Origin: a virus
Strand: one strand, 5' to 3'
DNA: 64,000 nucleotides
IMG/VR virus record: IMGVR_UViG_3300028920_000055
Span: 26,052-90,051 of that record
Shown: positions 4,122 to 59,703 of the stretch, piece by piece
How the letters are laid out: every line of letters begins with the position of its first letter
Numbering within the stretch: the stretch's first letter is position 1
Notes under the pieces: model-generated
Database searches by the model: none
What the model saw: only the letters and a program-made list of their open reading frames with translations
What the model was told of the DNA's origin: nothing
Translations under genes and position numbers: made by a program

Positions 4122-4152
4122 GTGTTAATTAACTGTTTGTTGGAGGTGTAAA

Positions 4153-4503: not shown

Positions 4504-4871
4504 TGGAAATCGAAATGAGCTTGTTAGCAGAAATTGAGCTGATTTTAGTTCTTGCTCTTTCATTCGTTACGGGCCAAATTTTTCATATCATCAAGAAAAA
4601 CAATCTTGAAGATAAAAAAACATTTAAGTGCTGGTTTGCGGAGAATTGGATTTCATTCGTTGTAAACACAGTAATTGGACTTGGAGCACTCGAAGTGCTT
4701 ATGACTCAGTTAACTAATGCGCCAATCAATATCACCGGTTGGATCGTCATTTTTTATACAGGATTAAATGCGGGAATTGCCTCAAATAGTATCGGTACGG
4801 ATACTAAAGAGGGGCAAGTTCAGTTGAAAAATTATACCCAACAATTGCAGCAAAGGAGAAATGTAAAATGA
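4500..4871 (+). CDS. small membrane protein, holin-like
   Basis: The 123-residue protein has hydrophobic segments around residues 8-30, 48-70 and 78-95 and a hydrophilic Gln/Lys-rich tail, a layout consistent with two to three membrane helices. Size and topology fit a holin, but many small phage membrane proteins look like this and no lysis enzyme is adjacent. ATGA couplings join it to both neighbours. Next to it is a protein with an N-terminal export signal. Confidence 0.6.
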   Translation: MMEIEMSLLAEIELILVLALSFVTGQIFHIIKKNNLEDKKTFKCWFAENWISFVVNTVIGLGALEVLMTQLTNAPINITGWIVIFYTGLNAGIASNSIGTDTKEGQVQLKNYTQQLQQRRNVK

Positions 4872-14611: not shown

Positions 14612-16309
14612 ATGCCTTACAGTTATCCCAACAATATACCATCTTGGGCTAAGAATCTGCCAACAGGTGCTCAGAAAAAGGCAATTTCTGCTTTTAATTC
14701 TGTTTTAAGGGACAATGGAACAGAAGAAGAAGCAAGAATAGCCGCTTGGGCAAATGTTAGGCGCGATTATAAAAAGTCTGGTGGTAAATGGGTGAAGAAA
14801 ACTTTTTCAATCCAGATTGATGACATCGTCACCTTGGACGAGTTGACAGATGACATCTTGGAGTTACCTGGTAAGTTACCCGTTGTCTGGATGAAATTGT
14901 TTAATGGCCTGGTTGAGAAACAAGTAAGTGTCCCCCTTGCGAGACAGAAGGTATGGGAAAGCATTAAAAAGTATGTGTATCAAACAAGGGATGGCAGTTG
15001 GAAATTCAAAAAACTGTTACCCGCCGAACGAATACTTTTTAATGACACGAACAAAGAGAGGGTTCCAAAGATGCTGATCTTTAAACAGTCAAATTCCAAA
15101 GATGGCCTCTTCAAAATGTTCATTCCTTTCCAAAAGGGTGTACAAACTGACCCCACTGGGAAAAAATTCTTGAAGGGCATCGCTTCTGGTAATTGGGTTG
15201 ATCGAGAATCCGATCAGATCATGCCCACTTTTATCAAGAAAATGCACAGTGTGGCTATTGGAAAGCCTGTCTTTGTAGATCACAAAAGAGATCAGGATCA
15301 CTTAATCGGAAGTGTTGTAAAGTCAGATGGTGATGATGACAAGTTCATTCCCACCACTGAACTTGAAGATGCTTTCGATAAGGAAAACCAAGAGGGCAAC
15401 ATACAAGTATCCACTCTCTTGAAAAGAATGGATAGGGGAATTAAATTTGCCTATTCCATTGGCGGTAGAATAACCAAAGCCGCAAAAGTTTGGCGCGAAG
15501 ATTTGAAAAAATTTGTGCGTCAAATTTACGATGGAGAGTTGTACGAAGTAAGTGTTGTTCCTGTTGGCGCCCTTCCTGGTTCCGATGTAGTCATGTTTTC
15601 CAAAAATCTCACTGACGAAATGTTCGAAAAAGATGAGTTGGACGAGGAATTCGAACAACTTATGAAGAGTGCTGGTGTGGACATCTCTAAGATCGAAGGA
15701 GATGTGGAGGTTCCTGTCATTGGGAGAATGGAAGAAGATGATTACTTTTGGCTTGATTTTGATAAGGCTGTTGACGCTTTTTCCGATCTAAGTATGGATC
15801 AACCCAAAGTCGAGGATGTTGATGTAGATTCCTTGTCAAAAGAGTGTTTCATACTACAGAAGAGCAAAAGATTCCCTTACAAATTTAATGACAATGAAAG
15901 TGGGGAGAATCTGTTACATCTTGGATTGCTTGACAAGTCTTTCCAAGAAGCTCACGATCAAGCCAAACATGATTCAGAAGCCAAGCTGGCTTATGAGTTA
16001 ATAAATGGTATCCGCAAGACTCTCGGCATCAAGGACAAATATTACAATTTCATCGATTTTCGGAAACTGTTGGTTGGCACAATCGGAGAAGCCATTGAGG
16101 CTCGTCAAGCAAGACAGAGGCTTTACGATGTGTTTGACGAATTCAACAGTTCTGTTTATCAAGTCATTTGGTCGGATGCATCTGTAGCCGAAAAGAAATC
16201 GGATATTGATGGATTGGCGGATCAATTGAAGAATGAGATTGATGAATTGTCGGTCGCTATGTCGCAAGAGGTTGTGGTTGCCATGAAATCGCTATCTGTT
16301 AAGGAGTAA
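14612..16309 (+). CDS. ChaB-domain prohead protease fusion
   Basis: The 565-residue protein has three parts. Residues 1-65 form a ChaB-like domain (SWAKNLPTGAQKKAISAFNS then AAWANVRRDYKK and a GGKW end). Residues about 170-330 form an HK97-type prohead protease (S78 fold), with VDH near 222 and the nucleophile context FAYSIGGR near 279, ending in ELYEVSVVPVGALPGS. The remaining 230 residues are acidic and helical and may act as a delta or scaffold-like region removed at maturation. The enzyme cleaves capsid and scaffold proteins inside the prohead. ChaB fusions to such proteases are known in some phages. Confidence 0.87.
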   Translation: MPYSYPNNIPSWAKNLPTGAQKKAISAFNSVLRDNGTEEEARIAAWANVRRDYKKSGGKWVKKTFSIQIDDIVTLDELTDDILELPGKLPVVWMKLFNGLVEKQVSVPLARQKVWESIKKYVYQTRDGSWKFKKLLPAERILFNDTNKERVPKMLIFKQSNSKDGLFKMFIPFQKGVQTDPTGKKFLKGIASGNWVDRESDQIMPTFIKKMHSVAIGKPVFVDHKRDQDHLIGSVVKSDGDDDKFIPTTELEDAFDKENQEGNIQVSTLLKRMDRGIKFAYSIGGRITKAAKVWREDLKKFVRQIYDGELYEVSVVPVGALPGSDVVMFSKNLTDEMFEKDELDEEFEQLMKSAGVDISKIEGDVEVPVIGRMEEDDYFWLDFDKAVDAFSDLSMDQPKVEDVDVDSLSKECFILQKSKRFPYKFNDNESGENLLHLGLLDKSFQEAHDQAKHDSEAKLAYELINGIRKTLGIKDKYYNFIDFRKLLVGTIGEAIEARQARQRLYDVFDEFNSSVYQVIWSDASVAEKKSDIDGLADQLKNEIDELSVAMSQEVVVAMKSLSVKE

Positions 16310-17046: not shown

Positions 17047-17097
17047 TCTGGCTGCGGCCAGCACGGATATACTCGAACTGTGATGGAGGATGTAGTC

Positions 17098-18102
17098 ATG
17101 CCGAAACTCGGAACTCTGACAGATGCTATTCAGAAGGCATTGACCACAACCGCTGGTAGTGGTGGTGACTTTCTGCCAACACCACTCGCGGCCACCTACA
17201 TCGATCTTGTTCGGGATTTGACGGTTTTCCGTCAAGTGTTTCGTGTGATACCGATGCCCGGAAAGACTTTTGACTTTCCGAAAATTTTGAGTGGGCCGTC
17301 TGTGTATTACGAAAGCACAGAGCTTACTCAAGAGGCAATCGAAACCACAATGACCACAGGTACAGTCAGGCTAACGGCTCGTAAGTTCATGGCCCAATTG
17401 AAAGCGTCTGAGGAAATCTTTGAAGATTCCTCGCAAAACATGGACGCTATCATTCGGGAGCATTTTGCCCGCGCCATGGCCGAAGCTGAAGAGGAAACCT
17501 GCCTTGTTGGTGACAGAAGCCACACTGCGGCTTCTGGAACCGAAGCCGCAGCCACTGAAGCCAATTGGTACACTAAAGACCATAGGCTCGCGTGGAATGG
17601 AATCCTCACCCTCGCTGGGGACATTGTCGGAACACTTTCTGCCGGAAACCGCGCCGCCAATCGTGTTGATTCGTCTGGTGCTGGAATGTCCACTGCCCTC
17701 ATTCGTCAGCTTCTGTACAATCTCGGAAAGTATGGTCGCCGGATGAGCGATATAGTGGTCTTTTGCAACCCCTGGTCGGTTAACCAGCTGTTGGACGATT
17801 CGAAACTGGTGACTCTTGACAAGTATGGCCCGAAAGCCACCATTTTCACCGGTGAGTTTGGGAAGCTGTACGGAAAGATCACGATGATCAACAGCGATTG
17901 GTGTACTGACGGCTATGCCGTTGGTACGCACAAATCTAATGTGGTTCTTGGTGATCGCCGGAAGATCAAGCTCAAGAGCGAGGAAATGATTGAATACGAT
18001 GCAAGACGTTTCGTCATTTCCCAGCGTGCCGATATGGCATGTGAACACCAAGACGCATTGTGCCAAATCCACGACCTGGATCAGCCGAGCACATGGAGTT
18101 AA
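17098..18102 (+). CDS. major capsid protein, HK97 fold
   Basis: The 334-residue protein follows protease and scaffold and is closed by a strong terminator. Features fit the phage major capsid family: an N-terminal arm (GGDFLPTPLAATYIDLVRD), an E-loop region around 65-90, an A-domain with VFCNPWSVNQLL around 220 and a C-terminal segment with RRFVISQRADMAC. It forms the icosahedral shell. I start at 17098 (ATG after GGAGGATGTAGTC); in-frame GTG/ATG codons at 17080 and 17083 lie before or within this site. Base composition is clearly more GC-rich than the window average, as expected for a highly expressed gene. Confidence 0.92.
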   Translation: MPKLGTLTDAIQKALTTTAGSGGDFLPTPLAATYIDLVRDLTVFRQVFRVIPMPGKTFDFPKILSGPSVYYESTELTQEAIETTMTTGTVRLTARKFMAQLKASEEIFEDSSQNMDAIIREHFARAMAEAEEETCLVGDRSHTAASGTEAAATEANWYTKDHRLAWNGILTLAGDIVGTLSAGNRAANRVDSSGAGMSTALIRQLLYNLGKYGRRMSDIVVFCNPWSVNQLLDDSKLVTLDKYGPKATIFTGEFGKLYGKITMINSDWCTDGYAVGTHKSNVVLGDRRKIKLKSEEMIEYDARRFVISQRADMACEHQDALCQIHDLDQPSTWS

Positions 18103-18128: not shown

Positions 18129-18162
18129 GATGGGCCTCTGTAAAGGGGCCCATCTTTCTTTT
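18129..18162 (+). terminator. rho-independent terminator after the major capsid gene
   Basis: An 11-bp stem (GATGGGCCTCT / AGGGGCCCATC, one wobble) with a GTAA tetraloop is followed by TTTCTTTT. It separates the capsid gene from the sugar cassette. Confidence 0.92.
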
Positions 18163-18179
18163 AACTGTTGAGGAAAGAC

Positions 18180-20420
18180 ATGAACAGACCAGAAGAAGGT
18201 GGTTTTATTTCGGGCAGTAAAAACATTATCAATGTAGGCCCGGAAGGAAAGAAAAAGGCGTATCCATCAGGAATCATTGATACAAAATCATTGGTGGTTC
18301 CGAACGAATCTGCTATTGATGGATCTAATATTTCTATTGGACAAGATGACACTCATTTTATGATTAAATTGTCCAAAGATTTTCTTGTGTCAGCCAGCAG
18401 AGAAGATGTTTTAAATTTAGTAAAAATGGCCTTATCCCCTATGTTTCTCTCCTTACCAAAAGATGATGCTATTCAAAAAGATATTGATGAAGAAAAGAAA
18501 AAACCAATTTCCGGCAAAGGAATTGCTATTTTTATGGACATGTTGTCACATTATACTGGCGGAAGATATAGTGTGGTACATCAAGGGGTGCTGCTCGCAG
18601 AAAATTTTGAAGTAACAATCGTAGCCAATCGAGAAATCCCATTTTTAAAAGATTTTAGGAACTATCCCGGCTATAACAATTTAAAAGTCGTAGTGGATTC
18701 TCAGTGGAGAATGAATGAACCTGAAAATCCTTATTTTCTTGTAATTGGATTGCCCGTAGACGCTGCCCAATATGCTTATGTTTATTGTCAAAAATGGAAA
18801 ATTCCTTTTTTCTGCTATATGTTTGAAAGTCCCAATTATGTATCTGAATATCGATCTGGCCCTGATTCTACAGAGGATTTTTGGGCTAATTTTAAAAAAG
18901 TGATAGAGAAAGCAGATGTTCGTCTTTCTCCCAGTGAAATAAGCAGTAAATATTTACAAGATTGGATCAAATTGTATGATAATAGCTTTCATGTCGTATA
19001 TCCTTGTATGAATACTCTCGTGGCAGATAAAGCCGCCGAAAGACCAATCAAAGAATACGATAAAGACCTTGTGTATGTTTCTCGAATGACTTCTTTTAAA
19101 AATCCATTGACTATCATTAAAGAGTTAGATCGAAGAAATTACAGCGGAACTTTACATATCATTGGAAAGATTTGGCAAGATAATGCTATTCCAGTCGATG
19201 CTTTCAAGAATGTTAAGATAAAAATACATGGTCAATTGGATGATTATGAAAAGTTTCGCATTATTGCTTCTTGCAAAGCATTGATTTTCCCAAGCAAATT
19301 CGAAGGTTTTGGTATGCCACCAATGGAGGCACTGTATTTTAATAAACCTGTAATTTGTTATCGATTGCCTGTATTGGAAGAGGTGTACGGAGACCACCTT
19401 GTTTATGTGGACGGAAATTATCGAACTTTTGTATCAAGAGTGTTCGAAGTATTAAAGAATTATCAATTATACATTCCAAATTGGAAGCCTCCATTTTCTT
19501 CTCCGGATGCTTGTAAGAGAAAATTGCTTAATATAATCCCCAAGCGAAAAATGCAAAAAGTATCTGTAGGAATTTTGGCTTTTAATTGTAATGATTATTT
19601 GCCATACGTTATAAAATCTTGTTATGACGAAGTGGATGAAATAGTCATTTGTGAAGGGCCAGTAAAAGGATTCGAATATGGTGCTACAGAAGAATATCAC
19701 AGCTCCGATGGTACTTGGGAGTGGCTCACGGATGATACTGGTCTCGGAATTGAAGATCCAAAGAATAAAGTTAGAATTATAGCAAGAAATGATAAAAGAG
19801 CTTGGTATGATAAAATAGAAATGCAGAACGCTATTGCGGAACGAGTAACAGGAGATATTTATATCAAGATGGATTCCGATGAAGTTTGGGATCCAAGAAC
19901 AATAAGGTCTGTTGTAGAATATATGATTATGAATAAAAATGTAGATATTATTCGAATGCCTTTTCTACATTTTTGGACATCTTTTGATAAAGTCGCTGTG
20001 GATGCTGGTGGTAAATGGGGAACTTGTCACCCACGAATATGGAGATGGCGCAGAAGTTTCCGACATCGTAAAACATTTAATGCTTTTCAAGATACTGCTC
20101 ACGATAATAGAATGGTAGCAGAACCATTCTTTGTTGAGCATACTTGGGAGGCTGAAGAGGGTGTAATATTTCATTTTGGTTATGCGAGAAAATTATACTA
20201 TGTGAATCAAAAATTGAGATATTATGCCGGAAGGCAAATAGAAAAAGTTGTAAAAACTGGTACATACGAGAATTGGAGAACACTTAAAGATTCTACCCAA
20301 CCTACACAAAATGTTAGAAGTTGGGCTGTCAAATTTAATAAGGAATTGTTGCCTCCAATAATGAAGGAGCATCCTTATTACGAGATAGACGACATAAGGA
20401 AACTGGAAGATGAAGGATAA
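18180..20420 (+). CDS. bifunctional glycosyltransferase, GT4 fused to GT2
   Basis: The 746-residue protein has an N-terminal region of about 110 residues of unknown function, then a GT-B (GT4-like) domain (about 115-440) with the E-x7-E signature in SKFEGFGMPPMEAL (about 372), and a GT-A (GT2-like) domain from about 459 with the metal-binding DSDE near 563. It could add two sugars in sequence to an acceptor. It opens the sugar cassette just after the capsid terminator, with a GAGGAAAG site before the ATG at 18180. The next gene overlaps by 11 bases. Donor and acceptor are unknown; virion proteins are plausible acceptors from context. Confidence 0.85.
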   Translation: MNRPEEGGFISGSKNIINVGPEGKKKAYPSGIIDTKSLVVPNESAIDGSNISIGQDDTHFMIKLSKDFLVSASREDVLNLVKMALSPMFLSLPKDDAIQKDIDEEKKKPISGKGIAIFMDMLSHYTGGRYSVVHQGVLLAENFEVTIVANREIPFLKDFRNYPGYNNLKVVVDSQWRMNEPENPYFLVIGLPVDAAQYAYVYCQKWKIPFFCYMFESPNYVSEYRSGPDSTEDFWANFKKVIEKADVRLSPSEISSKYLQDWIKLYDNSFHVVYPCMNTLVADKAAERPIKEYDKDLVYVSRMTSFKNPLTIIKELDRRNYSGTLHIIGKIWQDNAIPVDAFKNVKIKIHGQLDDYEKFRIIASCKALIFPSKFEGFGMPPMEALYFNKPVICYRLPVLEEVYGDHLVYVDGNYRTFVSRVFEVLKNYQLYIPNWKPPFSSPDACKRKLLNIIPKRKMQKVSVGILAFNCNDYLPYVIKSCYDEVDEIVICEGPVKGFEYGATEEYHSSDGTWEWLTDDTGLGIEDPKNKVRIIARNDKRAWYDKIEMQNAIAERVTGDIYIKMDSDEVWDPRTIRSVVEYMIMNKNVDIIRMPFLHFWTSFDKVAVDAGGKWGTCHPRIWRWRRSFRHRKTFNAFQDTAHDNRMVAEPFFVEHTWEAEEGVIFHFGYARKLYYVNQKLRYYAGRQIEKVVKTGTYENWRTLKDSTQPTQNVRSWAVKFNKELLPPIMKEHPYYEIDDIRKLEDEG

Positions 20421-21675
20421 GATATATTACAACGAAATGAAACCGGATGGCGACAAAAATTTTGTGGATAAAAATGCCGAACCAGTTAAAAGCAAAATTT
20501 TTGTTCAAAACGAATGGGTTGTTTCTCCATCTTCTACAAGGGATGTAATTGAAAAATTTCAATCTGTTATGATAGGAACAAAAGTAAAAAGTTTGAGACA
20601 AGTAATGGAAGAAAATGATAATCCCGATATGCCCTTTCAGGGATGGAGAGTAAATGTGGTGACTTGGGCGGATGTCGATAGCCGCACATATATGTGTTGG
20701 GGAGATTATTGGGTAAAGAAACAAATGGAAAATCATTTAAAGAAAATGGGATGTGTACTTAATGTTGGTCTTGAAGAAGCTGATGTATCGATATACCTTT
20801 TTGGATCCCCTTTTAATTACCGACCTGTTAGACCCTATCAATACAATCCTCTTTCCTACAATGTAGTTTGGTTTTATAGCCATCCTGACAAGATGAATGT
20901 CACAGAATCTGCTAAATACGATTATTTGTTTTGTCTTTCGGAGCCTTATATCGAAAAAATAAAAAAACAACACTTTAATGTACACCCTGAACCACTGCTT
21001 TCTTGTACGGATTTTAAACAGCCAGATGTAATTAAATATGGTGAACATCGAGATATTGTTATGGTCGCTAATGCTCGTGGAGCCGGTGCTCCTTATGGGC
21101 GTCAAATTGTAAAATTGTTAACTAACATTAATTTAAAAGGATTGAAAGTAAGTGTTTGGGGGCATAAATGGAATGATAGTAAGAAATATCATAAATTTCC
21201 ATCTAAATGGTATAAAGGTCAATATTGGGACTATAATCAGTTGCCGGAGCTTTATAGAGGGGCCAAAGCTGTTCTTATAGACGGTCACACTGACATGGAA
21301 CGTGAAGGCTTTGTTCCTATGAAATTGTTTGATATATTCGCTTCTGGTGGATTACCTATCATACATAAAAATCCCGGTATAAAAAAGATATTTGGTGATT
21401 ATGTTCTTCAATATCGTGACGAGGAATCTTTACATCAATGCATTACAATTCTTTCCAATAAAGAGAAGTGTTTAAGAATCATTAAAAGGGGGCAAAAGAT
21501 TGCTTTGCAACATACATTTAAAGATCGAGTAAATACTATTATGAATACAATACGAGATAATGTAGTAAAATCTGATGCTCTAAGAGGGGATTCGAGAGCA
21601 ATGATATTTAGAAGTTCGAAGACAAGTACTGTTAAAAGAACAGGCAAAATAGAATGGGTAGGAAATGTCGATTAA
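20410..21675 (+). CDS. CgeB-like GT-B glycosyltransferase
   Basis: The 421-residue protein has a C-terminal GT1/CgeB-like half with a VWGHKW motif, YRGAKAVLIDGH and MKLFDIFASGGLPI (about 300-316), features of the CgeB/glyco_trans_1_2 group. The N-terminal 75 residues are charged and unrelated to the catalytic fold. It overlaps both neighbours, so it belongs to the same translated unit. It is similar in plan to 22416-23387. Substrate unknown. Confidence 0.8.
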   Translation: MKDKIYYNEMKPDGDKNFVDKNAEPVKSKIFVQNEWVVSPSSTRDVIEKFQSVMIGTKVKSLRQVMEENDNPDMPFQGWRVNVVTWADVDSRTYMCWGDYWVKKQMENHLKKMGCVLNVGLEEADVSIYLFGSPFNYRPVRPYQYNPLSYNVVWFYSHPDKMNVTESAKYDYLFCLSEPYIEKIKKQHFNVHPEPLLSCTDFKQPDVIKYGEHRDIVMVANARGAGAPYGRQIVKLLTNINLKGLKVSVWGHKWNDSKKYHKFPSKWYKGQYWDYNQLPELYRGAKAVLIDGHTDMEREGFVPMKLFDIFASGGLPIIHKNPGIKKIFGDYVLQYRDEESLHQCITILSNKEKCLRIIKRGQKIALQHTFKDRVNTIMNTIRDNVVKSDALRGDSRAMIFRSSKTSTVKRTGKIEWVGNVD

Positions 21676-22414
21676 GCACGTAAAATATGAAGCCTTGATA
21701 ATCACTTATAACAGATTGAAATATCTAACACAATGTATCGAATCTCTTAATAAACAATCTGTTAGAGTGATGATAAATGTGTGGGATAACGGTTCCGCTG
21801 ATGGAACGAAAAAGTGGATTAAACAAAATATATCCAAATTGAATGGCGGAGATTTTTTTGATAATGGGAGAAATGTTGGAACAGCAGACGCGAGAAATAT
21901 TGGTCTTTCGAGACTTCAATCAGATATTGTATTATTAACAGACGATGATATGTGGTATCCAAGAGATTTTATGGAAGCCGCTTATGGAGTGTTCGAAGTA
22001 AAAGACGATGCAGGTGTAGTTACCGCCTACAATCCTCATACAGAGGCTCGATATAAGAAAAAATTTCTTAAAATGAGAACACACGAAGCTGATATATATA
22101 TGATTGATTTGATACAATCTTGTCCACCTGGATGTTGGGTTTGTGACAGAGAATTAATATTAAGTTGTGGAGGATTCTTTTTACCCAAAGGAAAGTTAAT
22201 GGGTTATTCTTCAAGATTTTTGGTAAGAAGCATATATGGCGAGGGAAAGAAATTTTATGGTATTTATAAATACAAAGGAAAGCCGATGAAAGTGGAGCAT
22301 ATGGATACTCTTAGCAATAAAAGATCACATTTGTTATATTATAAGGATATAGGATATGTAGATTTTAGATTGAGACAGAAGTATGGAAGTAAATACAAAA
22401 GTAGAAAGAAATGA
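21665..22414 (+). CDS. GT2 family glycosyltransferase
   Basis: The 249-residue protein has the GT-A signature: ITYNRLKYLTQCIESL at the N-terminus, INVWDNGSADGT (about 37) and the DxD motif TDDDMW (about 92). The C-terminal part includes PPGCWVCDRELIL and GGF, common in GT2 acceptor domains. It starts inside the end of the previous gene after GGTAGGAA. Closest internal relatives are 23375-24112 and 489-1241. Confidence 0.88.
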   Translation: MSIKHVKYEALIITYNRLKYLTQCIESLNKQSVRVMINVWDNGSADGTKKWIKQNISKLNGGDFFDNGRNVGTADARNIGLSRLQSDIVLLTDDDMWYPRDFMEAAYGVFEVKDDAGVVTAYNPHTEARYKKKFLKMRTHEADIYMIDLIQSCPPGCWVCDRELILSCGGFFLPKGKLMGYSSRFLVRSIYGEGKKFYGIYKYKGKPMKVEHMDTLSNKRSHLLYYKDIGYVDFRLRQKYGSKYKSRKK

Positions 22415-22415
22415 T

Positions 22416-23387
22416 ATGAGAATTTTATACGCAGGTACATTTACTGGTTTTTGGGTTTCAGATCACCATAGAGCAAATTCTTTCAAGAAGTATTTTGATA
22501 GAGTTGTTCAATTCGATTATCGCACTGTCGGCAAAGGTGATAATCTAAAGATGTGTTCTATTTTACACCAATCTATAGGAAGCCTTAATCCTCATGTTTT
22601 ATTTGTAAACAAAGGTGAACAAATTATACCGAATACTTTACATAGAATTAAATTGAATTTTCCCAATACCTTTATTGTAGCCTTTAACGGTGATCAAAGG
22701 GGAAAGGCTTCAAATATGACCGCAGCATTGGGAAGGGTTGCAGATGGTATTCTTATAAACAACCAACACGAGCCTCAATGGAAAGAATATAAAGATATGG
22801 GGGTTAGAGCGATATATGAATATCATACAGCTTCTGATCCCTCTGTGTTTAAACCAATAAGAGGAATCGATAAAAAATTCGATATAGTTTTTGTCGGTGG
22901 AAATTATGGAGATAAGTTTCCGCTAAGTAAATTTAGATTAAATTGTATAAGAGAGTTGGCTAAGGATTTTAAAGTTGCTATTTCCGGCACAACTAATTGG
23001 AGAAATGTACCTGGTATTCATTTTCTTGGCCGCAATTATGATGTAAAATTTTCAGAAATTGCTGCACAAGCTCGATGTATACTTGGAGTAAATGCTTTCG
23101 ATAATGTAAATCATTATACAAGCAATCGAACTTGGAATAGTATGGCTTGTGGAAGGCCATATGTTTGTCATTATTATCAAGGGGCTGAACATTTTTTTGA
23201 TGATAAGAAAAACATATTGTTTTTTAGGAATATAGATGATTTAAAGCAAATTGTAAGTTGGATAAAAGCGAATGAGAAGCAAGCTGACCAGATTGGAGCG
23301 GCTGGAAGAAAATTGATTCAAACCCAACATACTTACGATCATAGAACTGAACAATTATTAAGGATATATGAACAATGGAAAAAATGA
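22416..23387 (+). CDS. CgeB-like GT-B glycosyltransferase
   Basis: The 323-residue protein begins MRILYAGTFTGFW, the first strand of a GT-B fold, and carries the late motif SNRTWNSMACGRPYVC (about 233-248) with a following FRNIDDL and C-terminal helix, as in CgeB-like glycosyltransferases. I start at 22416, just after the previous stop; the frame opens at 22383 but that would overlap without benefit. It overlaps the next GT2 gene by 13 bases. Substrate unknown. Confidence 0.8.
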   Translation: MRILYAGTFTGFWVSDHHRANSFKKYFDRVVQFDYRTVGKGDNLKMCSILHQSIGSLNPHVLFVNKGEQIIPNTLHRIKLNFPNTFIVAFNGDQRGKASNMTAALGRVADGILINNQHEPQWKEYKDMGVRAIYEYHTASDPSVFKPIRGIDKKFDIVFVGGNYGDKFPLSKFRLNCIRELAKDFKVAISGTTNWRNVPGIHFLGRNYDVKFSEIAAQARCILGVNAFDNVNHYTSNRTWNSMACGRPYVCHYYQGAEHFFDDKKNILFFRNIDDLKQIVSWIKANEKQADQIGAAGRKLIQTQHTYDHRTEQLLRIYEQWKK

Positions 23388-24112
23388 TTGACTTTTTTGT
23401 ACTTACTTATAATCGATTAAAATATCTTAACCAGTGTGTTCGATCTGTAGTAGATCAAACAGTTGATATTAGGATTAATGTGTGGAATAATGGGTCTACA
23501 GATGAAACTACCGAATGGTTAATTAACCATTCGGAATTGCTAAATAGGGGACTACTTTTCAACAGTCCCGTTAATTTGGGAGTTGCAGATGCTCGTAATG
23601 TCATGATCGATTTAATAGATGCTAATTGGATATTTATTAGTGATGATGATATGTGGTATGATACTAATTGTATGAAGTATAATTGGGAAATGTTACAAGC
23701 CTATGAAAATAAGTTTGGAAAATCTAAAATTGGTTTTGTTGGCTTGAACATGCCTTGGAGAAGAAGTAAATATGATGATGAAATATTTATTAAAAAAGTA
23801 AATGTTGATAAATTCGAAATACACGAAGTTAGAACAACTCCACCCAATGCTTGGCTTATTAATAAAAAGGCTCTTTTTAAAATGGGCGGGTTTAAATTGC
23901 CGCCAAATCGATTGATGGGATATACAGCTTTTCATTTGCCAAATCAGTTAAGACAAAATGGTTACAAGGTGATTAGACTCGATAAAGTGAATGGAAAATT
24001 ATACAACGGTTGCGAACATACTGATAATATAGGTCACGAAAAAGGATTTAGAGATCATTACGAGGAATACAATGAGTGGAGATCCAAAGAAAAAAGATTG
24101 CCCACTGCCTGA
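23375..24112 (+). CDS. GT2 family glycosyltransferase
   Basis: The 245-residue protein has VLTYNRLKYLNQCVRSV, NVWNNGSTDET (about 38) and ISDDDMW (about 88-94), diagnostic for the GT-A/GT2 fold. It is very similar in these motifs to 21665-22414, which suggests gene duplication within the cassette. An alternative start is the ATG at 23384. It overlaps the next gene by 41 bases. Confidence 0.87.
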   Translation: MEKMIDFFVLTYNRLKYLNQCVRSVVDQTVDIRINVWNNGSTDETTEWLINHSELLNRGLLFNSPVNLGVADARNVMIDLIDANWIFISDDDMWYDTNCMKYNWEMLQAYENKFGKSKIGFVGLNMPWRRSKYDDEIFIKKVNVDKFEIHEVRTTPPNAWLINKKALFKMGGFKLPPNRLMGYTAFHLPNQLRQNGYKVIRLDKVNGKLYNGCEHTDNIGHEKGFRDHYEEYNEWRSKEKRLPTA

Positions 24113-24791
24113 TGCTGTAGAGTTAAAAAATCTTGCAAAAAGGTATAAAACAGATAAAGTCAGGCATGGATTTATACCAATTTATTCCAGTTATTTAAAG
24201 TCATTCCGTCAAAAGGCTAAATTTGTAATTGAAATTGGAATAAAATATGGTGCCTCTTTAAAGATGTGGCACGATTATTTCCCTAAAGCCACTATCGTAG
24301 GCATTGATAATATGGTAAAACACGATCCATCTATTTGGGCTAAATCAGAATTTGAATCAAGAGTGATTGTTTGGAAAGCAGATCAATCAAATCCAAAAGA
24401 CTTGAGCCGGTTTATTTATCAATCTCAAGGGATGATGGGAAAGGTTGATCTGATTGTTGATGATGGTAGCCACAAGATGTACGATCAACAGCTAACGCTG
24501 GCTAAATTGTTTGTAATGCTAAGGCCAGGCGGAATATATGTAATAGAGGATTTGGATACATCTTTGGCAGGTGGTCCAAAAAATAAATTTGGGATAATAA
24601 AAGATGACCAAGATACCACATTACGTGTACTTGAAAGGGCCAGAATTAAAAAGAAGATACAAGTTACATCTCGTCACTTGGCTAATTTGGAAGTTAATAG
24701 GATTTATCTTTGTAAGCATATTGCTGGTATTGACATTTATCGCTTACATGATTGCAGGAATATTATTGCTTTTATTAGGAAAATCAAATGA
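24072..24791 (+). CDS. SAM-dependent methyltransferase (class I)
   Basis: The 239-residue protein has the SAM-binding motif VIEIGIKYGAS (about 51-61), an acidic residue in IVGIDN (about 76), and DLIVDDGSHKMYDQQ (about 126-140) followed by LRPGGIYVIEDLD. This arrangement matches sugar and antibiotic O-methyltransferases of the macrocin/cephalosporin hydroxylase-like group. In this cassette it probably methylates a sugar. The start follows CGAGGAATACA inside the previous gene. Confidence 0.83.
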   Translation: MSGDPKKKDCPLPDAVELKNLAKRYKTDKVRHGFIPIYSSYLKSFRQKAKFVIEIGIKYGASLKMWHDYFPKATIVGIDNMVKHDPSIWAKSEFESRVIVWKADQSNPKDLSRFIYQSQGMMGKVDLIVDDGSHKMYDQQLTLAKLFVMLRPGGIYVIEDLDTSLAGGPKNKFGIIKDDQDTTLRVLERARIKKKIQVTSRHLANLEVNRIYLCKHIAGIDIYRLHDCRNIIAFIRKIK

Positions 24792-25513
24792 ATCTTGAAG
24801 AAATTACAACAGCCGTTATTACCTATAACAGACCACTTTGTGTAGGCAATTTTTTAAAATCCGCTCGCAAGCATCTTGACGATATGCCAGTGTTGGTAAT
24901 AGATGGTTCGAGCGAGATAGGTGATGGATGTATTACTTTCGATTCCGCAATATTTACACATAATAGACCATTATCAATCAATCTCAATAACGCTATCTTG
25001 TTCTCTCGAACAAGATATGTAATGATTTGCAATGACGATATTTATTTCAAAGATGGAATCATGCCTTTTTTGTTTAAGTTAAACGGGGCAGGATTGCATA
25101 TCTTGAGCAATTGGAGCTGTTTTGTAATAGATAAAGCAATTATTCCTACAGTTGGTTGGTTTGATCCAAGATTAGAGTCAGCAGGATACGATGGGAAAGA
25201 TTACGGTTCCAGAATGAAAATCTGTGGAATCGAAATGAAAAGGTATGATTGTAGAGAGTTTATACATCACGATCAGTATACAAGAAGGAAACATTATAAA
25301 TCAGTAAGATGGAATTATCGTCAATCTTTTGATTTTTTTAGAAAAAAGTGGGATGTAGTAAATAGTAAAACTACTGTGAATAGTAAAACTACTGTGAATT
25401 TAAAAAAGTTAAGTGGTGCTAAGTTGAAGCAGATGAAGAAAATGGATGATCCTGATTGGTATCCTTATTATACAGAATTATACAGGAAAGGTATCTGGTC
25501 AGATGAAATCTAA
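24788..25513 (+). CDS. GT2-like glycosyltransferase
   Basis: The 241-residue protein starts with a GT-A-like segment (AVITYNRPLCVGNFLKS) and carries ICNDDIYF (about 80-87) as the DxD-like motif. It is more diverged than the other GT2 proteins here: the first loop is shortened (VIDGSSEIGDG). Residues about 191-204 contain an exact six-codon tandem duplication (25361-25396) in a basic linker. ATGA coupling joins it to the methyltransferase before it. Confidence 0.75.
   Translation: MNLEEITTAVITYNRPLCVGNFLKSARKHLDDMPVLVIDGSSEIGDGCITFDSAIFTHNRPLSINLNNAILFSRTRYVMICNDDIYFKDGIMPFLFKLNGAGLHILSNWSCFVIDKAIIPTVGWFDPRLESAGYDGKDYGSRMKICGIEMKRYDCREFIHHDQYTRRKHYKSVRWNYRQSFDFFRKKWDVVNSKTTVNSKTTVNLKKLSGAKLKQMKKMDDPDWYPYYTELYRKGIWSDEI
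25361..25396 (+). repeat. 18-bp perfect tandem duplication inside a GT2 gene
   Basis: AATAGTAAAACTACTGTG occurs twice head to tail, in frame, giving NSKTTVNSKTTV. The exact identity suggests a recent slippage event. Confidence 0.9.
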
Positions 25514-26306
25514 TGCAGAACTTACAGTTGCACTGGCCTTGTTCAAGGGAAAAGAGATTTCCTGGCTTGGTATGGAATCTTTATGTAATCAAGTTACAAT
25601 TCCTGCTTCTTGGGAATTGCTGATAGCAGAAGAACAGTGCTCTGGAAGAACAGGAGCTGATGAAATCTTAAAATATCACAAGCGATTAAGGGAAATTGGT
25701 TGTGAAAGAATTGAATATTATCCCCTTACGAAAACTATGGGATTGGTAAATAAGTTTGTATTTTTAGCCAGTAACGCTGCAGAGACTTCAAAAATGTTTT
25801 TACTTTGGGCACAGGATGATTATTATGTGTCTACAAGGATAAGAGAAACTTATGATGCTATGATGTCTTATCCTTATCATATGTATACAAGAGATAACAA
25901 TTTCGATTATAGTTTTGCAACAGGAAATTTAACTTACAGACATTATAACAATAGGATTTTCAGACCTTACATTGAATTGGCTTATCGTCCACACGCTTTA
26001 AAAAGAATTATTTTAACAGGCGATGCAAGGCGGAGAAGTCATTCAGATATGACTCTGTTTAAATTGTATCAAGAAGTCGTCAAGAAGAAAAAGATTACAA
26101 GATTTATAAACACATTGCCCAATAATTCTGTTTATACTACAGGATTTAATTATTATAACAAGCCAAGAATTAAAAAATTGAAGCCAAGTAAAATGTTTCA
26201 ATATACAGAAGCTATATTGGAAGATGTTGTACCTGTAGATATAGCTATGAGACTTAGAGAATTAAAAAAGGTGTATGATGAAAGAACGCAAAAATATCAA
26301 CACTGA
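25503..26306 (+). CDS. probable GT-A fold glycosyltransferase
   Basis: The 267-residue protein begins with LTVALALFKGKEISWLGMES and has LLWAQDDYYVS (about 99-109), which suits the nucleotide-sugar metal site of a GT2-like enzyme. Overall similarity to the other GT2 proteins is weak, so this is a lower-confidence family call. I start at 25503, overlapping the previous stop by 11 bases; the frame is open to 25446. The next gene overlaps its end by 32 bases. Confidence 0.65.
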   Translation: MKSNAELTVALALFKGKEISWLGMESLCNQVTIPASWELLIAEEQCSGRTGADEILKYHKRLREIGCERIEYYPLTKTMGLVNKFVFLASNAAETSKMFLLWAQDDYYVSTRIRETYDAMMSYPYHMYTRDNNFDYSFATGNLTYRHYNNRIFRPYIELAYRPHALKRIILTGDARRRSHSDMTLFKLYQEVVKKKKITRFINTLPNNSVYTTGFNYYNKPRIKKLKPSKMFQYTEAILEDVVPVDIAMRLRELKKVYDERTQKYQH

Positions 26307-26943
26307 AACTTATTGGGACGGAAAGTATTCCAGAAATTATTGGAGTAATCCCAATAATTTGGTAAAAGGTGCACACAAGCCTCTTTATGAAAAAGTTGTA
26401 GACATAATATTCGAGGTGCGTCATGATTATATTGTGGACTTGGGGGCCGGAATTGGTCCAGTCCCATTTTTACTATCAAAACGGGGTTTTGATTTTAATA
26501 AAAGAATATACATATGCGTGGATCAGTCAACCGTTGGACTTGATAGGGCTAAAAAATTCAGTCCCTCAGTGAAAGTATTGCCCGCCAAAGTTGATGAGCC
26601 TATTACTCAGCTTGAGAAAAGCAAAGCTGATCTTGTAATATGTTGCGAAGTGCTTGAACATTTAACCAATCCAATAAATGCTTTAAAAAATGCTTATGAA
26701 CTTGTGAGCGATACAGGATTGGTTGTAGTTTCTGTTCCTCACGGAATAAGCAAGCATCAAGAACACGTACACTGGAGCATAAGGCAGGATTTGTTGGAGC
26801 GTTTTCATGAAGCGGTTGGGCTCAATGTTTATGGGGTTACAATCGCAGATCGCTGGCGAGTTGTAAAAAGCAGAAGAATGTGGAGGAAGAAAAATGTCGA
26901 GCATCCAACAGTTCAGAAAGCCGATCTTTGTATTTCAGACTAA
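26275..26943 (+). CDS. SAM-dependent methyltransferase (class I)
   Basis: The 222-residue protein has YIVDLGAGIGPVPFLL (about 51-66), motif I of class I methyltransferases, and the later ADLVICCEVLEHL (about 117-129) and GLVVVSVPHG typical of the methyltransf_11/23 group, often acting on small molecules or sugars. ATGATG follows AAAAGGTGT. It overlaps the aminotransferase gene by 50 bases, so the two are made together. Confidence 0.83.
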   Translation: MMKERKNINTETYWDGKYSRNYWSNPNNLVKGAHKPLYEKVVDIIFEVRHDYIVDLGAGIGPVPFLLSKRGFDFNKRIYICVDQSTVGLDRAKKFSPSVKVLPAKVDEPITQLEKSKADLVICCEVLEHLTNPINALKNAYELVSDTGLVVVSVPHGISKHQEHVHWSIRQDLLERFHEAVGLNVYGVTIADRWRVVKSRRMWRKKNVEHPTVQKADLCISD

Positions 26944-28084
26944 GATCGAAAAAGATAAAGTATTGGCTACAATATCTGATTCAATTGATAAAGGTTGGAT
27001 TGGACTCGGTAAGGTAACTGAAGCGTTCGAGCGAGAATTTGCTGAATATGTTGGAGCAAAGTATGCGGTTGGTTTGAATAGTGCCACAGCTGGACTCCAT
27101 CTTGCTCTTATTTTAGCCGGAGTAAAAAAACACCAGCAGGTTATAACTACACCAATGACTTTTGTTTCAACCAATGCTGCTATTCTTTATGTAGACGCGA
27201 ATCCCTTTTTTGTAGATGTTGGTGAATATTTACATATAAAAATCGATGATATACTTAATCCCGAAATAAGTCCAAACAGTGCTAAAGCTATAATGTTAGT
27301 ACATTTCGGCGGGATTCCTATTGAAAAGAAAAAAATTATACAGCTTCAGAATAATTGTCCCCATACAGCTATTATACAAGATTGCGCTCATGCTACAGGG
27401 GCGAAATTTGAAGATGGATCGATGGTAGGAAGTTTTGGAGATTATAACATCTTTTCGTTCCATGCTGTAAAAAATTTACCATCACCTGATGGCGGAATGT
27501 TGGTAACTAACGATGCATCTATTGCCGCAGAAGCAAAAAAGTTGAGGTGGATGGGTATCGATAAAGATACGGCTTCAAGAACGCACCATCTACACAACGT
27601 TGGATATAGCTGGTATTATAATGTTGGGAAGCTCGGATATAAATATCACATGAACGATATAACTGCTGCATTTGGATTAGCTGGACTCGATACAATCAAT
27701 AGAGATAATGACCGGCGCGGAGAAATTCGACAGGCTTATTATGACAAAATAGACAAAAATTATGCCAAGTTGGTAATGGCAGATACTAATGTAAAGTCTG
27801 CTAATCATATGGCTACATTAATACTAAGACAAGGTATTGATCGAAATACTCTTATCCAACGATTGAAAGATAATTGGAATATTCATCCTGGAGTACATTA
27901 TACTCCAAATAATTATTTTGAGCCGTTTTCTAATTATCCAGGCGGAACTATAATGGCTTGGAACGTATATAAACAGATTGTGACTTTGCCTTGTCATCTC
28001 GAAATGACCGATGAAGATGTGGCAAGAGTTATAACGGCGGTAAACTCTGAGATAGATAGAATATTAGAAAAATCACTACAATGA
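26894..28084 (+). CDS. DegT/DnrJ/EryC1-type NDP-sugar aminotransferase
   Basis: The 396-residue PLP enzyme has the family hallmarks: GLGKVTEAFEREFAEYVGAKY with GLNSATAGLHLAL (about 57), TTPMTFVSTNAAI (about 86), QDCAHATGA (about 167) and the Schiff-base Lys in FSFHAVKNLPSPDGGML (about 187-200). These enzymes transfer an amino group to a keto-sugar nucleotide (ArnB, PglE, PseC, DesI types). No NDP-sugar dehydratase is seen in the window, so the keto-sugar would come from the host or from outside the window. A GNAT acetyltransferase follows shortly, consistent with making an N-acetylamino sugar. Confidence 0.9.
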   Translation: MSSIQQFRKPIFVFQTKIEKDKVLATISDSIDKGWIGLGKVTEAFEREFAEYVGAKYAVGLNSATAGLHLALILAGVKKHQQVITTPMTFVSTNAAILYVDANPFFVDVGEYLHIKIDDILNPEISPNSAKAIMLVHFGGIPIEKKKIIQLQNNCPHTAIIQDCAHATGAKFEDGSMVGSFGDYNIFSFHAVKNLPSPDGGMLVTNDASIAAEAKKLRWMGIDKDTASRTHHLHNVGYSWYYNVGKLGYKYHMNDITAAFGLAGLDTINRDNDRRGEIRQAYYDKIDKNYAKLVMADTNVKSANHMATLILRQGIDRNTLIQRLKDNWNIHPGVHYTPNNYFEPFSNYPGGTIMAWNVYKQIVTLPCHLEMTDEDVARVITAVNSEIDRILEKSLQ

Positions 28085-28094
28085 AACCAATCAT

Positions 28095-28115
28095 ATTTGC
28101 TCTCTAAGAGCAAAT
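28095..28115 (+). promoter_or_regulatory. hairpin after the aminotransferase gene
   Basis: ATTTGCTCT / AGAGCAAAT forms a 9-bp stem with a 3-base loop just after the stop. No T-run follows, so it may be a processing or stabilising hairpin rather than a full terminator. The upstream arm is part of CCAATCATATTTGCT (28087-28101), which recurs at 60672-60686. Confidence 0.4.
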
Positions 28116-28150
28116 TACCTTAAATTCATAGTAGGATACAGGAGGAAAAT

Positions 28151-28438
28151 ATGTCTACAATAAGAGGATTTTCGTTGGTGGAGCCGCCGAAGGCGGAGAG
28201 CTTCATAAAATATGTACACCACGGCATTAATATGTGGGTACGTAATGCCTTGAAAGGAAAGCATCGGTTGGTGTGTTGTTGCTATCATTGTGATAAATTT
28301 CATCCAGGCAAGGAGAACAATTGTCCAATAGCTCAAGCTCTTTATGAGTTTGATGTGGATAATAGTGTAACAACTCCTGTTTGGGAGTGCGAAGGTTTCG
28401 AATTTACCGATACGCCTGATGTGGAGGAAACAAAATGA
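28151..28438 (+). CDS. small Cys/His-rich protein
   Basis: The 95-residue protein has a metal-site-like cluster CCCYHC followed by KFHPGKENNCPIAQALYEF (about 44-67), a pattern reminiscent of zinc- or iron-sulfur-binding small phage proteins. It has a strong ACAGGAGGAAAAT site. It is ATGA-coupled to the acetyltransferase, which suggests a joint role, but the function is unknown. Confidence 0.7.
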   Translation: MSTIRGFSLVEPPKAESFIKYVHHGINMWVRNALKGKHRLVCCCYHCDKFHPGKENNCPIAQALYEFDVDNSVTTPVWECEGFEFTDTPDVEETK

Positions 28439-28962
28439 GTAATTGTAAATACGACATCGTTCTGGTTCCTGTAAACAAAGATGTAGCTGGAGATTCTCAG
28501 TTTATTTACAACGTCAGGAACCATCCGGCCATCCGGAAAAATCTCATCAACGAAAGTGAAATTCCAATCTCGAAACACAATCAGTATTGGAGTAAACTCA
28601 TTCTCTCCAATGACGTTGTGCTCTATAAAATCGAAATGATGGATCCGATTACTCATCAATTCATCTCGGTTGGATATTGTGATACTAAAGTAATCGGTGA
28701 TGAGATGGAATTCGGTTGGAAGATTTTACCGGATTATCAAGGTCTTGGACTTGGCCGGAAAGCCGTTGAAGCTCTGCTCAACGCCAATGAAGGCTATATT
28801 CAGATCAAAGGCTTAACACCATCTTTGACAGTATTCGATGATAATTTTCCAGCCATTAAGTTATATCAATCTTTTGGTTTTGAAACAGTAGATCAAAAGA
28901 AATTGAAGAGACTTGATGGTACAATTCGTGTCCTTTTGAAGATGAAACTCACCTCTAATTAG
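28435..28962 (+). CDS. GNAT family N-acetyltransferase
   Basis: The 175-residue protein has the acetyl-CoA-binding motif A (LPDYQGLGLGRKAVEAL, about 98-114, matching Q-x-x-G-x-G/A) and motif B DNFPAIKLYQSFGFE (about 140). Length and order match GNAT enzymes of the RimJ/PseH/WecD type. Beside a DegT aminotransferase, acetylation of an amino sugar nucleotide is the most economical hypothesis; protein acetylation is the alternative. Confidence 0.83.
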   Translation: MSNCKYDIVLVPVNKDVAGDSQFIYNVRNHPAIRKNLINESEIPISKHNQYWSKLILSNDVVLYKIEMMDPITHQFISVGYCDTKVIGDEMEFGWKILPDYQGLGLGRKAVEALLNANEGYIQIKGLTPSLTVFDDNFPAIKLYQSFGFETVDQKKLKRLDGTIRVLLKMKLTSN

Positions 28963-28976
28963 AAAAGGATATTGGA

Positions 28977-29001
28977 TATAATATAGTAAATTTGTAAAAT
29001 A
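28977..29001 (+). promoter_or_regulatory. AT-rich candidate promoter region before the connector genes
   Basis: The 78-base gap contains a perfect TATAAT (28977-28982) without a clear -35, then TTTGTAAAATA (28991-29001), identical to 3610-3620, about 50 bases before the ATG. A promoter restarting the structural operon after the sugar cassette is plausible. Confidence 0.35.
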
Positions 29002-29040: not shown

Positions 29041-29733
29041 ATGGCAACTGGAGAATTAACAGCTTCTTATATCGATTGGGAAGATGCTTGTTATATGGTC
29101 GGGGCCGATCCTACGGCCATAGACAATATTAAGGATCCAATCATTCAATGGGTTGAAACGCTCGGTATTGAGTTGGAGCTTGGAAGAGACATCTCTACGG
29201 CATTTCAGGAAAATACTGTTAGCTCAAGTGATCCAGAGCTTCACAGTATTGAGCGCGATGATCAGGATACCCTTATAGCCAAGCATTTTCCTATCATAAG
29301 TGTAACTCGCCTGCGAGATAATATTCAAGCAAGCAATTCCAACAACATATTAACTCTAACGGAACATACTAATTTCGAGATCGAAAAAGAAACTGGACTC
29401 ATAAGGCTCACAGGCGAGTTACAAGACAGCAACCTGATGAAGAAAATCGAGTTCTTCACACAGGGTTATAATACAGTGGATCTGTGTTACGTGTGGGGAT
29501 TTACTTCAATTCCAAACGATGTAAAGGCTTTCGCTAATTTGATGGCTGCTGCTTTGTTGAGACAATACGATAAAATGGTAGCCAGTGGAGAATCTGCTGG
29601 ATTGAAGCGATTACAGATGGGCGATTATGAAGAAGAAGTGGGAGATATGTACAAGAACGCACAGAACGAGTTTATGGCATCTGTAAAGTTGTCTTCATAT
29701 CGGTTAAAGAGTAAATACGGAAATTATGTTTGA
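29041..29733 (+). CDS. head-tail connector (HK97 gp6-like adaptor)
   Basis: The 230-residue protein is beta-rich in the first half and ends with a helical segment including FTSIPNDVKAFANLMAAALL (about 155-174), typical of head-tail adaptor proteins where 'P-x-D-v' precedes the conserved helix. It is the first of four connector genes in canonical order after the capsid. It would bind the portal ring. The SD is TTGAGGAACA. Confidence 0.78.
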   Translation: MATGELTASYIDWEDACYMVGADPTAIDNIKDPIIQWVETLGIELELGRDISTAFQENTVSSSDPELHSIERDDQDTLIAKHFPIISVTRLRDNIQASNSNNILTLTEHTNFEIEKETGLIRLTGELQDSNLMKKIEFFTQGYNTVDLCYVWGFTSIPNDVKAFANLMAAALLRQYDKMVASGESAGLKRLQMGDYEEEVGDMYKNAQNEFMASVKLSSYRLKSKYGNYV

Positions 29734-30092
29734 TGTCGATAGATGAATCAAAACTGCCTCAATCGGTGACTATATCTGAACCATCATCTTCACTCGATGC
29801 TTATGGTAATCCAGATGGAACGCTGGCTGTTATTAATTCGAGCGTTCCTTGTCGGATAACAAGAAATAAACATTACAATGCAGAAGCGGGAAGTGAAGCG
29901 GGATTTTTGAGTCGATCAACGCATTTGATTTTTATGAATCATACTTATAACAGCATTACTAATACTGTAAAGACTGGTTTTCAAATATCTACTGGATCTG
30001 ACATCTATATAGTTCAATTTGTAGACGATGCTCCCGGTGGAGTTGAAGATCATCATCAACAAATATATTGTACTAAGCAGGTAAAAGATTAA
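29733..30092 (+). CDS. head closure / stopper protein
   Basis: About 119 residues, beta-rich, ending GSDIYIVQFVDDAPGGVEDH plus a short strand, which fits SPP1 gp16-like head-completion proteins ('I-x-Y-V-x-N-V' type ending). I use the ATG at 29733, which overlaps the previous TGA. Position between adaptor and HK97 gp10-like protein supports the call. Confidence 0.7.
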   Translation: MSIDESKLPQSVTISEPSSSLDAYGNPDGTLAVINSSVPCRITRNKHYNAEAGSEAGFLSRSTHLIFMNHTYNSITNTVKTGFQISTGSDIYIVQFVDDAPGGVEDHHQQIYCTKQVKD

Positions 30093-30670
30093 TGCCAAGA
30101 CCAGTAAGGATAACAGGAGCAAAAGGGCGGAGAGCCACTGGGGCATTGGTAAAAGCTCCTGGTCGAGCACCTGCGGCTTTCAGAGGAAAGAAACTTACAC
30201 CTCCGAAAATACAAATAGTTGTACACGGAGCGAAACAAGCAGAAAAAGTTTTTAAATTAATCAATAAAGCCTCTAAATCCTGGACACAAAAAGGTGTAGA
30301 GGCGACCCTGAAGATGTTCCTTAAACAAGCTCAAGCGAATGTACTTTCTAATCCTCAATTAAGAGCTTATGACAAGGGCAATCTTTACAAGGATTTAAAG
30401 TATAAAATTGAAGTTGTAAAAGATGGATTTGTACAAGGTTCTGCTGGAAACTGGGGTGAACAAGCAACGGGCGGTACAAATCCAGCTTATGTGACTTATC
30501 ATATATATGTACACGAAGGCACAAGAAAAATGCCTAAAAGACCTTATCTACATTATGCCTATTTATGGAAAGTAAATCTTGCAATAAAACATCTGGAGAA
30601 AAGCATTCAAAAGGATGCTATCGAAGGATCAGCACCAAGAATTGGAATAGCGAATAGGCTCGCAAGATGA
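30092..30670 (+). CDS. HK97 gp10-like neck / tail-completion protein
   Basis: The 192-residue protein has a basic N-terminal extension (about 40 residues), then a helix around 55-80 and the family's late motif YHIYVHEGTRKMPKRPYL (about 146-163), corresponding to the conserved 'Y-x-x-E-x-G-T-x-x-x-x-x-R-P-F/Y' segment. These proteins sit in the neck and help join tail to head. TAATG overlap with the previous gene. Confidence 0.85.
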   Translation: MPRPVRITGAKGRRATGALVKAPGRAPAAFRGKKLTPPKIQIVVHGAKQAEKVFKLINKASKSWTQKGVEATLKMFLKQAQANVLSNPQLRAYDKGNLYKDLKYKIEVVKDGFVQGSAGNWGEQATGGTNPAYVTYHIYVHEGTRKMPKRPYLHYAYLWKVNLAIKHLEKSIQKDAIEGSAPRIGIANRLAR

Positions 30671-31155: not shown

Positions 31156-31611
31156 ATGTCAGTCCAATTCGGATTGGCCATCATGCGCTTGGATTCTGTG
31201 ACTCTGGGTTATATGCAGGGTGTGTCGCTCGATTTTAATTTCGAGCAAGCACTGTTGTATAGCGGGTCTCAGATTTTCCCTGTAGACGTTCGAGTTCACA
31301 CTGGAAGCATTGCTGGTAATGCTGAATTTGCGGATTTGAACGCCTTGGGAATTCACAAGCTAATTGGCGGCACAAGATCCAGCTATGGCGTTATCACTCT
31401 GACATCCACTTCATATCCCGGCACGTGGGAATGTTTGTTACACATGACCACGGATAACAAGACGTTCCGTATCGTGTTGGAGAAATGCAGGAGTACCAAG
31501 TTGAGTTTCGCTTGGGCAAGGGATGCTCACATTATTCCCAACTTCGATTTTCAAGCGTTCGATGATGGCTCCGGTAACATTGGAACCATCACGCTTGAGG
31601 ATGTTTCGTGA
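31156..31611 (+). CDS. major tail tube protein
   Basis: The 151-residue protein is beta-rich and follows the terminator-like gene; the tail chaperones and tape measure come next, which is the classic place for the tube protein. It has its own strong SD (CATAGGAGAATAAC) and is closed by a terminator-like hairpin, and its base composition is more GC-rich than its neighbours, all signs of high expression. The start of the fold is unusual (FGLAIMRLDSVTLGYMQGV), so the call rests mainly on context. Confidence 0.72.
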   Translation: MSVQFGLAIMRLDSVTLGYMQGVSLDFNFEQALLYSGSQIFPVDVRVHTGSIAGNAEFADLNALGIHKLIGGTRSSYGVITLTSTSYPGTWECLLHMTTDNKTFRIVLEKCRSTKLSFAWARDAHIIPNFDFQAFDDGSGNIGTITLEDVS

Positions 31612-59702: not shown

Positions 59703-59703
59703 G

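Follow-up and report, generated by a model that had tools for sequence, protein, structure and literature searches.

What does a phage do with a dozen genes, most of them for predicted sugar enzymes, set in the middle of its structural operon? The question is raised by a 64,000-nucleotide stretch (hereafter the window; G000:26052-90051) of the 90-kb IMG/VR virus record IMGVR_UViG_3300028920_000055, in which 12 genes separate the major capsid protein (MCP) gene at 17080-18102 from the connector genes that begin at 29041. The cassette spans 18168/18180-28962, the two left ends being alternative starts of its first gene, a glycosyltransferase (GT) in which a GT4 and a GT2 domain are fused. The original prediction held that the phage glycosylates its own virion with a methylated, N-acetylated amino sugar, and named modification of the host surface as the alternative. 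Our analysis, which assigned families with Pfam, NCBIfam and PHROG profiles and compared profiles with hhalign, favors the first of these: judging from sequence, the cassette likely O-glycosylates the phage's own virion subunits, probably at or near a C-terminal serine, with a modified amino-sugar glycan. The genes of the cassette, the structural genes that flank it and the terminator described below all lie on the plus strand.

Linkage of the fused glycosyltransferase to the capsid gene

The first gene of the cassette (18180-20420) encodes the GT4-GT2 fusion, which matched PF00534 (53.7 bits) and PF00535 (25.9 bits), both above cut-off. Its longest open reading frame (ORF) is 18168-20420, opening on a TTG at 18168, but the ATG at 18180 is the likelier start, as originally proposed, with the Shine–Dalgarno-like GAGGAAAG ahead of it. 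Across three aligned fusions, an E-x7-E motif in the GT4 half (E379-E387) and a DxD motif in the GT2 half (D569, D571) were invariant, and we take both to carry the meaning that they have in the respective GT families.

Searching with the window's MCP, and thus independently of any GT, retrieved four relatives, and the fusion followed the MCP in all three that had downstream sequence. Conversely, a fusion-GT profile retrieved 15 loci, 14 of which carried an MCP homologue upstream of the fusion; the exception, L082, matched fusion residues 119-429 only. A wide MCP-profile search then defined the lineage considered here, namely uncultured relatives with MCPs down to about 40% identical: 33 IMG/VR loci, one contig of a metagenome-assembled genome (MAG) and the window itself, giving 35 loci in 26 MCP groups (95% identity). 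In each of the 27 loci whose sequence extends 1.6 kb or more past the MCP, corresponding to 20/20 groups, the fusion was found downstream, and this includes the eight of eight evaluable groups outside the profile seeds, which provide the fair test. The gap between the two genes ranged from 21 nt to 1.3 kb in 19 groups and reached 4 kb in one (L107). The remaining 8 of the 35 loci end too soon, one of them (L094) showing the start of the fusion. In three distant phages with 28–32% similar capsid stretches, no GT is annotated at the corresponding place, and among 50,697 phage records searched with three fusion queries only partial matches, spanning no more than 22% of the query, were retrieved.

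Since the fusion follows the MCP in all 27 evaluable loci (20 groups), the cassette is not a chance insertion. The original prediction, which had called for a search for the same cassette in related phages, was thus right about the position between head and connector genes, while its term "insertion" is misleading for a gene linked to the MCP throughout the lineage. As judged from these sequence comparisons, the MCP-linked cassette has long belonged to the operon and is conserved in it, with accessory genes that differ between relatives.

A single match came from the genome collections: locus L110 (DYLM01000005.1), whose MCP is 80% identical, is a contig of 59.6 kb from the bin of a Chloroherpeton thalassium MAG. 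The bin holds PseB matches below cut-off and a gene of the Bac_transf (priming transferase) family. A host resembling green sulfur bacteria is a lead only, as binning can be wrong.

A terminal serine on the capsid and probable tail tube proteins

The C-termini of the main virion subunits offer a candidate acceptor. The MCP of the window (ending ...DLDQPSTWS; matched by phrog_10/1623 and by T5-type and other MCP sequences of the PDB) shares its last residue, serine, with all 31 complete MCPs of the lineage (24/24 groups). All six serine codons are in use and the adjacent residues vary, and further serines or threonines occur at positions -2 to -5 in 22 of the 24 groups. The probable tail tube protein (31156-31611, between the neck genes and the tape measure, ending ...TLEDVS), our second proposed acceptor, likewise belongs to a family with D-x-S at the C-terminus in 9/9 aligned homologues; glutamate takes the last place in a distant homologue from L124, a record of 18.6 kb in which no GT2 was matched. 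In the other structural families of these loci, a terminal serine was found in 15 of 139 distinct tails.

The same ending is present in mycobacteriophage Che8, whose MCP ends in TGS and whose major tail protein ends in DGS. We searched 19 records for the gp110-type GT of Che8 and compared the C-termini in phages with and without it. The gene was present in Che8, Firecracker, Jabbawokkie, Sbash, Poise and phiGD23-1, and serine ended both proteins in all six, the two Sbash proteins being identified by position (they are annotated as scaffold and hypothetical). Where the gene was absent, the MCP had a terminal serine in one of 12 cases (HK97) and lacked it in AGM4, phiSASD1, Jace, Giles, lambda, T7, TM4, Bxb1 and three outgroups; the major tail protein had it in two of seven (HK97 and lambda). 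Both proteins were serine-ended in 6/6 phages with the gp110-type GT versus 1/7 without (HK97). These counts leave aside Pleione, whose MCP lay outside the stretch retrieved, the tail proteins of Giles and T7, for which identity was unclear or the comparison did not apply, those of L111-L113, the MCP of L124, and L024, which stands outside the 19 records.

L024 deserves a remark in its own right. In this unrelated IMG/VR phage (L024:1105-8166) the MCP ends in serine and a DegT gene lies about 5 kb downstream, perhaps a further instance, apart from this lineage, of sugar genes linked to a capsid gene.

A broader proposal, which we advance tentatively and hold to be possible rather than probable, is that a terminal serine on the MCP and tail tube is a general acceptor code for O-glycosylation of phage virions, reached independently by the mycobacteriophages and by this lineage, in which a phage-made amino sugar and a fast-changing set of decorating enzymes would give each phage its own variable sugar coat.

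Cassette genes, predicted sugar and expression

Behind the fusion, the genes are tightly packed, with overlap at 10 of the 11 internal junctions when the longest-ORF starts are used, in keeping with the overlapping genes originally described. Two CgeB-like GTs (CgeB1, 20410-21675, PF13524 59.5 bits; CgeB2, 22383-23387, PF13524 86.4 bits) alternate with two clear GT2 enzymes (GT2a, 21665-22414, PF00535 75.8 bits; GT2b, 23375-24112, PF00535 60.4 bits). They are followed by an S-adenosylmethionine (SAM) methyltransferase of the Methyltransf_24 family (24072-24791; PF13578 30.3 bits, phrog_21658 88.4 bits) and by a borderline GT2-like protein, GT2c (24788-25513; PF00535 22.7 bits against a cut-off of 23.3, phrog_2456 E 4.6e-5). 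The next gene, at 25446-26306, has no assigned family. It had been counted as a fourth GT2, an assignment that found no support: it lacks a Pfam match, its PHROG match is at chance level (E 0.15), and hhalign against the other GT2s gave a probability of 1.2. A paralogue, 23% identical and likewise without a Pfam family, lies far upstream in the same record (L069:4087-4959, that is, G000 4087-4959). The cassette is completed by a second SAM methyltransferase (Methyltransf_23, 26275-26943; PF13489 44 bits), which has a 43% identical counterpart at the same place in L083, a DegT sugar aminotransferase of PseC/ArnB-like type (26894-28084; PF01041 275 bits), a 95-residue protein with six cysteines (28151-28438) and a PseH-like GNAT N-acetyltransferase (28435-28962; PF00583 33 bits). 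The Cys-rich protein has no Pfam family and no homologue among 125 sequences from the window and the loci. The gene content first listed for the cassette thus stands for the fusion, the two CgeB-like GTs, both methyltransferases, DegT, the Cys-rich protein and GNAT, and falls from four GT2-type proteins to three at best, two clear and one borderline, plus one unconfirmed. A further GT2 gene lies outside the cassette (489-1241, plus strand; PF00535 67.8 bits), and its closest relative (35%) sits inside the cassette of L110.

Comparison of the loci revealed how unequally these genes are kept. In L076, just the fusion and one 148-residue ORF separate the MCP from the connector. L083 and L110 carry the fusion with CgeB-like, GT2 and methyltransferase genes, then DegT, GNAT and the connectors, and the cassette also ends in DegT-GNAT in L084, L085 and L116. 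In L071, two CgeB1-like genes together with GT2a-, GT2b- and CgeB2-like genes were found, without a DegT match before the connector. Because the accessory content differs in this way between L076, L083, L110, L084, L085 and L071, the fusion is, at the level of sequence, the core gene and the other cassette genes are a changing set of decorators. L071 also holds a cupin-domain protein between MCP and fusion (L071:8629-9147; PF07883 42.1 bits), perhaps a sugar isomerase-like accessory. The G+C content of the cassette is 35% versus 41% in the head genes, a drop seen in L110 and L083 and absent in L072 and L084; we set it aside as a sign of recent transfer, the pattern being uneven between relatives.

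The likely sugar can be approached through the last genes. The best NCBIfam model for the DegT protein was PseC, at 265.7 bits under an equivalog cut-off of 423.5, so that it can be called PseC-like only, and for the GNAT protein it was PseH, at 42.5 bits under a cut-off of 93.1. The solved relatives of DegT are ArnB-type aminotransferases, and its SFHAxKN motif aligned with the ArnB-type sequence 8sng. Two dehydratase/epimerase families, GDP_Man_Dehyd and Polysacc_synt_2, were not found in the phage record, which is possibly a fragment, and this suggests that the host would supply the 4-keto precursor. The methylated, N-acetylated amino sugar of the original prediction is accordingly best described as plausible, given a PseC/PseH-like pair and two methyltransferases.

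Taken together, we propose a module expressed from the structural operon. DegT and GNAT would convert a host 4-keto nucleotide sugar to an N-acetylated amino sugar. The fusion would then start or build a core glycan on virion subunits; the most likely attachment is an O-linkage to the conserved serine that ends the MCP and tail tube protein, or beside it. Afterwards the CgeB-like and GT2 enzymes may lengthen the glycan and the methyltransferases cap it, their fast turnover varying the product. Finally, a terminator behind the MCP would hold enzyme levels under those of the capsid. We infer the acceptor, linkage, sugar and order of action alike, as well as any benefit, be it shielding of the particle or altered adsorption.

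That terminator, originally named as one border of the cassette, is a plausible hairpin at 18129-18154 with an 11-pair stem (7 G-C) and the tail TTTCTTTT, although terminator-like sites in the region, seven versus 7.3 ± 2.5 in shuffles, are not in excess. Under a looser rule, a similar hairpin lies 3' of the MCP in 20 of the 31 loci with a complete MCP. Such a site is ordinary, as terminators are annotated behind the capsid genes of HK97 and T7 too; it probably sets the capsid in excess over the enzymes. The candidate promoter proposed for the other border (near 28960-29000) is not evidence: it is a 9/12 match, and promoter-like matches number 57 versus 47.6 ± 5.9 in shuffled sequence (about 1.6 standard deviations).

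The connector block on the far side (29041-30670) opens with a gene without an assigned family (29041-29733), followed by a head-tail adaptor and Neck1 (29730-30670; phrog_793, phrog_5), and its homologues come after the cassette in relatives. The cassette therefore does lie, as first described, between capsid and connector genes. At the position of the head maturation protease, the protein encoded at 14612-16309 begins with a ChaB domain (PF06150 49.7 bits) and weakly matches prohead proteases. Farther away, a ThyX-like gene (PF02511 54.6 bits), a class III aminotransferase gene (PF00202 191.6 bits) and a thymidylate-kinase-like gene stand in a row at 59677-62509, possibly a set for thymidine or nucleotide modification, and a gene beside that of the replicative helicase (52727-53620) has a weak ADP-ribosylglycohydrolase match (PF03747 24.1 bits, cut-off 26.2).

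Alternative targets and comparison with known systems

Several points weigh against self-glycosylation of the virion at a terminal serine. The profile of the wide search was seeded with MCPs that already adjoin the fusion. The GT genes of Che8 lie far from its capsid gene, so linkage to the MCP is unnecessary for capsid glycosylation. The comparison of phage records, with Fisher p values of 4e-4 for the MCP, 0.016 for the major tail protein and 0.004 for both together, is small, hand-picked, post hoc and uncorrected for relatedness. Serine also ends lambda V, both the MCP and the major tail protein of HK97, and the MCP of the unrelated L024, which rules out a terminal serine alone as a diagnostic sign. 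The tail tube was identified by its position and by weak matches to tail-tube and major-tail families, and the predicted structures were too poor for use (mean predicted local distance difference test scores of 40.7 for the probable tail tube and 40.5 for the MCP).

The cassette might instead alter a surface polysaccharide of the host, such as O-antigen or a flagellin or pilin glycan, blocking superinfection or otherwise changing the host. Some of its members do score best against models of surface-glycan enzymes (EpsD-, PseC- and PseH-type), and sets of DegT, GNAT, methyltransferase and GT genes also occur in bacterial surface-glycan islands. However, the cassette proteins have no strongly hydrophobic or membrane segment and look soluble, the GtrA flippase (PF04138) was not found in the window's record, so that the features of gtr-type O-antigen conversion are lacking, and the Bac_transf priming transferase, like GtrA a lipid-carrier enzyme, was not found in any of seven relatives' virus records. 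The fusion is moreover tied to the MCP throughout the lineage, and late expression, as the operon suggests, would leave little time to remodel a host surface. We consider this target unlikely. The linkage, the absence of membrane segments and of GtrA and Bac_transf, and the terminal serine shared with Che8 together argue, on sequence grounds, for the preference originally given to the virion.

A glycan carried solely by another virion part (a decoration protein, fiber or minor tail protein), and not by the MCP or tail tube, seems to us about equally improbable. One or two small genes that could encode decoration proteins lie between MCP and fusion in L071, L072, L079, L084 and L089, but no gene of at least 120 residues does so in the window and its nearest relatives (gaps of 65-112 nt), and of two such genes scanned with Pfam, the one match was a cupin, not a structural family. 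Least likely of all is that the GTs add sugars to modified bases in the phage DNA and sit beside the capsid gene by coincidence: phage GTs reportedly hypermodify DNA (Pyle 2024, a reference of PMC12619734) and the window has the ThyX-like, class III aminotransferase and deoxynucleoside monophosphate kinase-like genes described above, but PF00303, the hydroxymethylase/thymidylate synthase family, has no relative in the record, the fusion sits beside the MCP rather than replication genes, and PF00202 was not found in 7/7 fusion-carrying relatives, so that block and fusion do not travel together.

Self-glycosylation of the virion, if correct, has wider consequences. An MCP-linked GT kept across a broad environmental lineage suggests that in this lineage virion glycosylation is long-established and ordinary. 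The terminal-serine pattern would make glycosylated virions cheap to test for from sequence and mark an obvious residue for point mutation, and a coat that differs from phage to phage would matter for adsorption, the survival of particles and immune recognition in phage therapy.

Virion glycosylation is reportedly thought almost absent outside actinobacterial phages. In mycobacteriophages, glycans have been located on the C-terminal ends of the capsid and tail tube subunits (Freeman 2023, cited by PMC12619734 and also by PMC11256854), and PMC12363180 names Che8, Corndog and Myrna in this connection. Our lineage resembles the Che8 type in its phage-encoded GTs and in the serine that ends both proteins (24/24 MCP groups and 9/9 probable tail tubes here). 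It differs in that the Che8 GTs lie at the far genome end and ours beside the MCP, and in its aminotransferase/acetyltransferase pair, none being described in the mycobacteriophage passages of these sources. Closer in arrangement are the Cluster O phages Corndog and Firecracker, in which O-methyltransferase and GT genes lie between portal and protease and for which a passage of PMC4351075 proposed capsid modification in 2015. Both systems keep such genes within the structural operon; Cluster O has four genes between portal and protease (L126), whereas ours has 12 between MCP and connectors and adds sugar-nucleotide enzymes. To pseudaminic acid synthesis, the likeness lies in DegT and GNAT, which best match the PseC and PseH steps and are paired in relatives, and the difference in scores well under the equivalog cut-offs and in the two dehydratase/epimerase families not found.

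Chloroviruses also glycosylate their own MCP with virus-encoded machinery, but they are eukaryotic algal viruses with an unrelated capsid. Douge (PMC13033339) and HFTV1 (PMC12494034), in the passages concerned, exemplify glycan binding and not virion glycosylation. Our literature search found no description of the lineage or of a terminal-serine rule, although Freeman 2023 itself may state the residue. Capsid glycosylation and glyco-genes within a structural operon are thus already known from mycobacteriophages, and the novelty here lies in the lineage, in a fused GT tied to its MCP, in the amino-sugar pair that is added and in the shared terminal-serine pattern.

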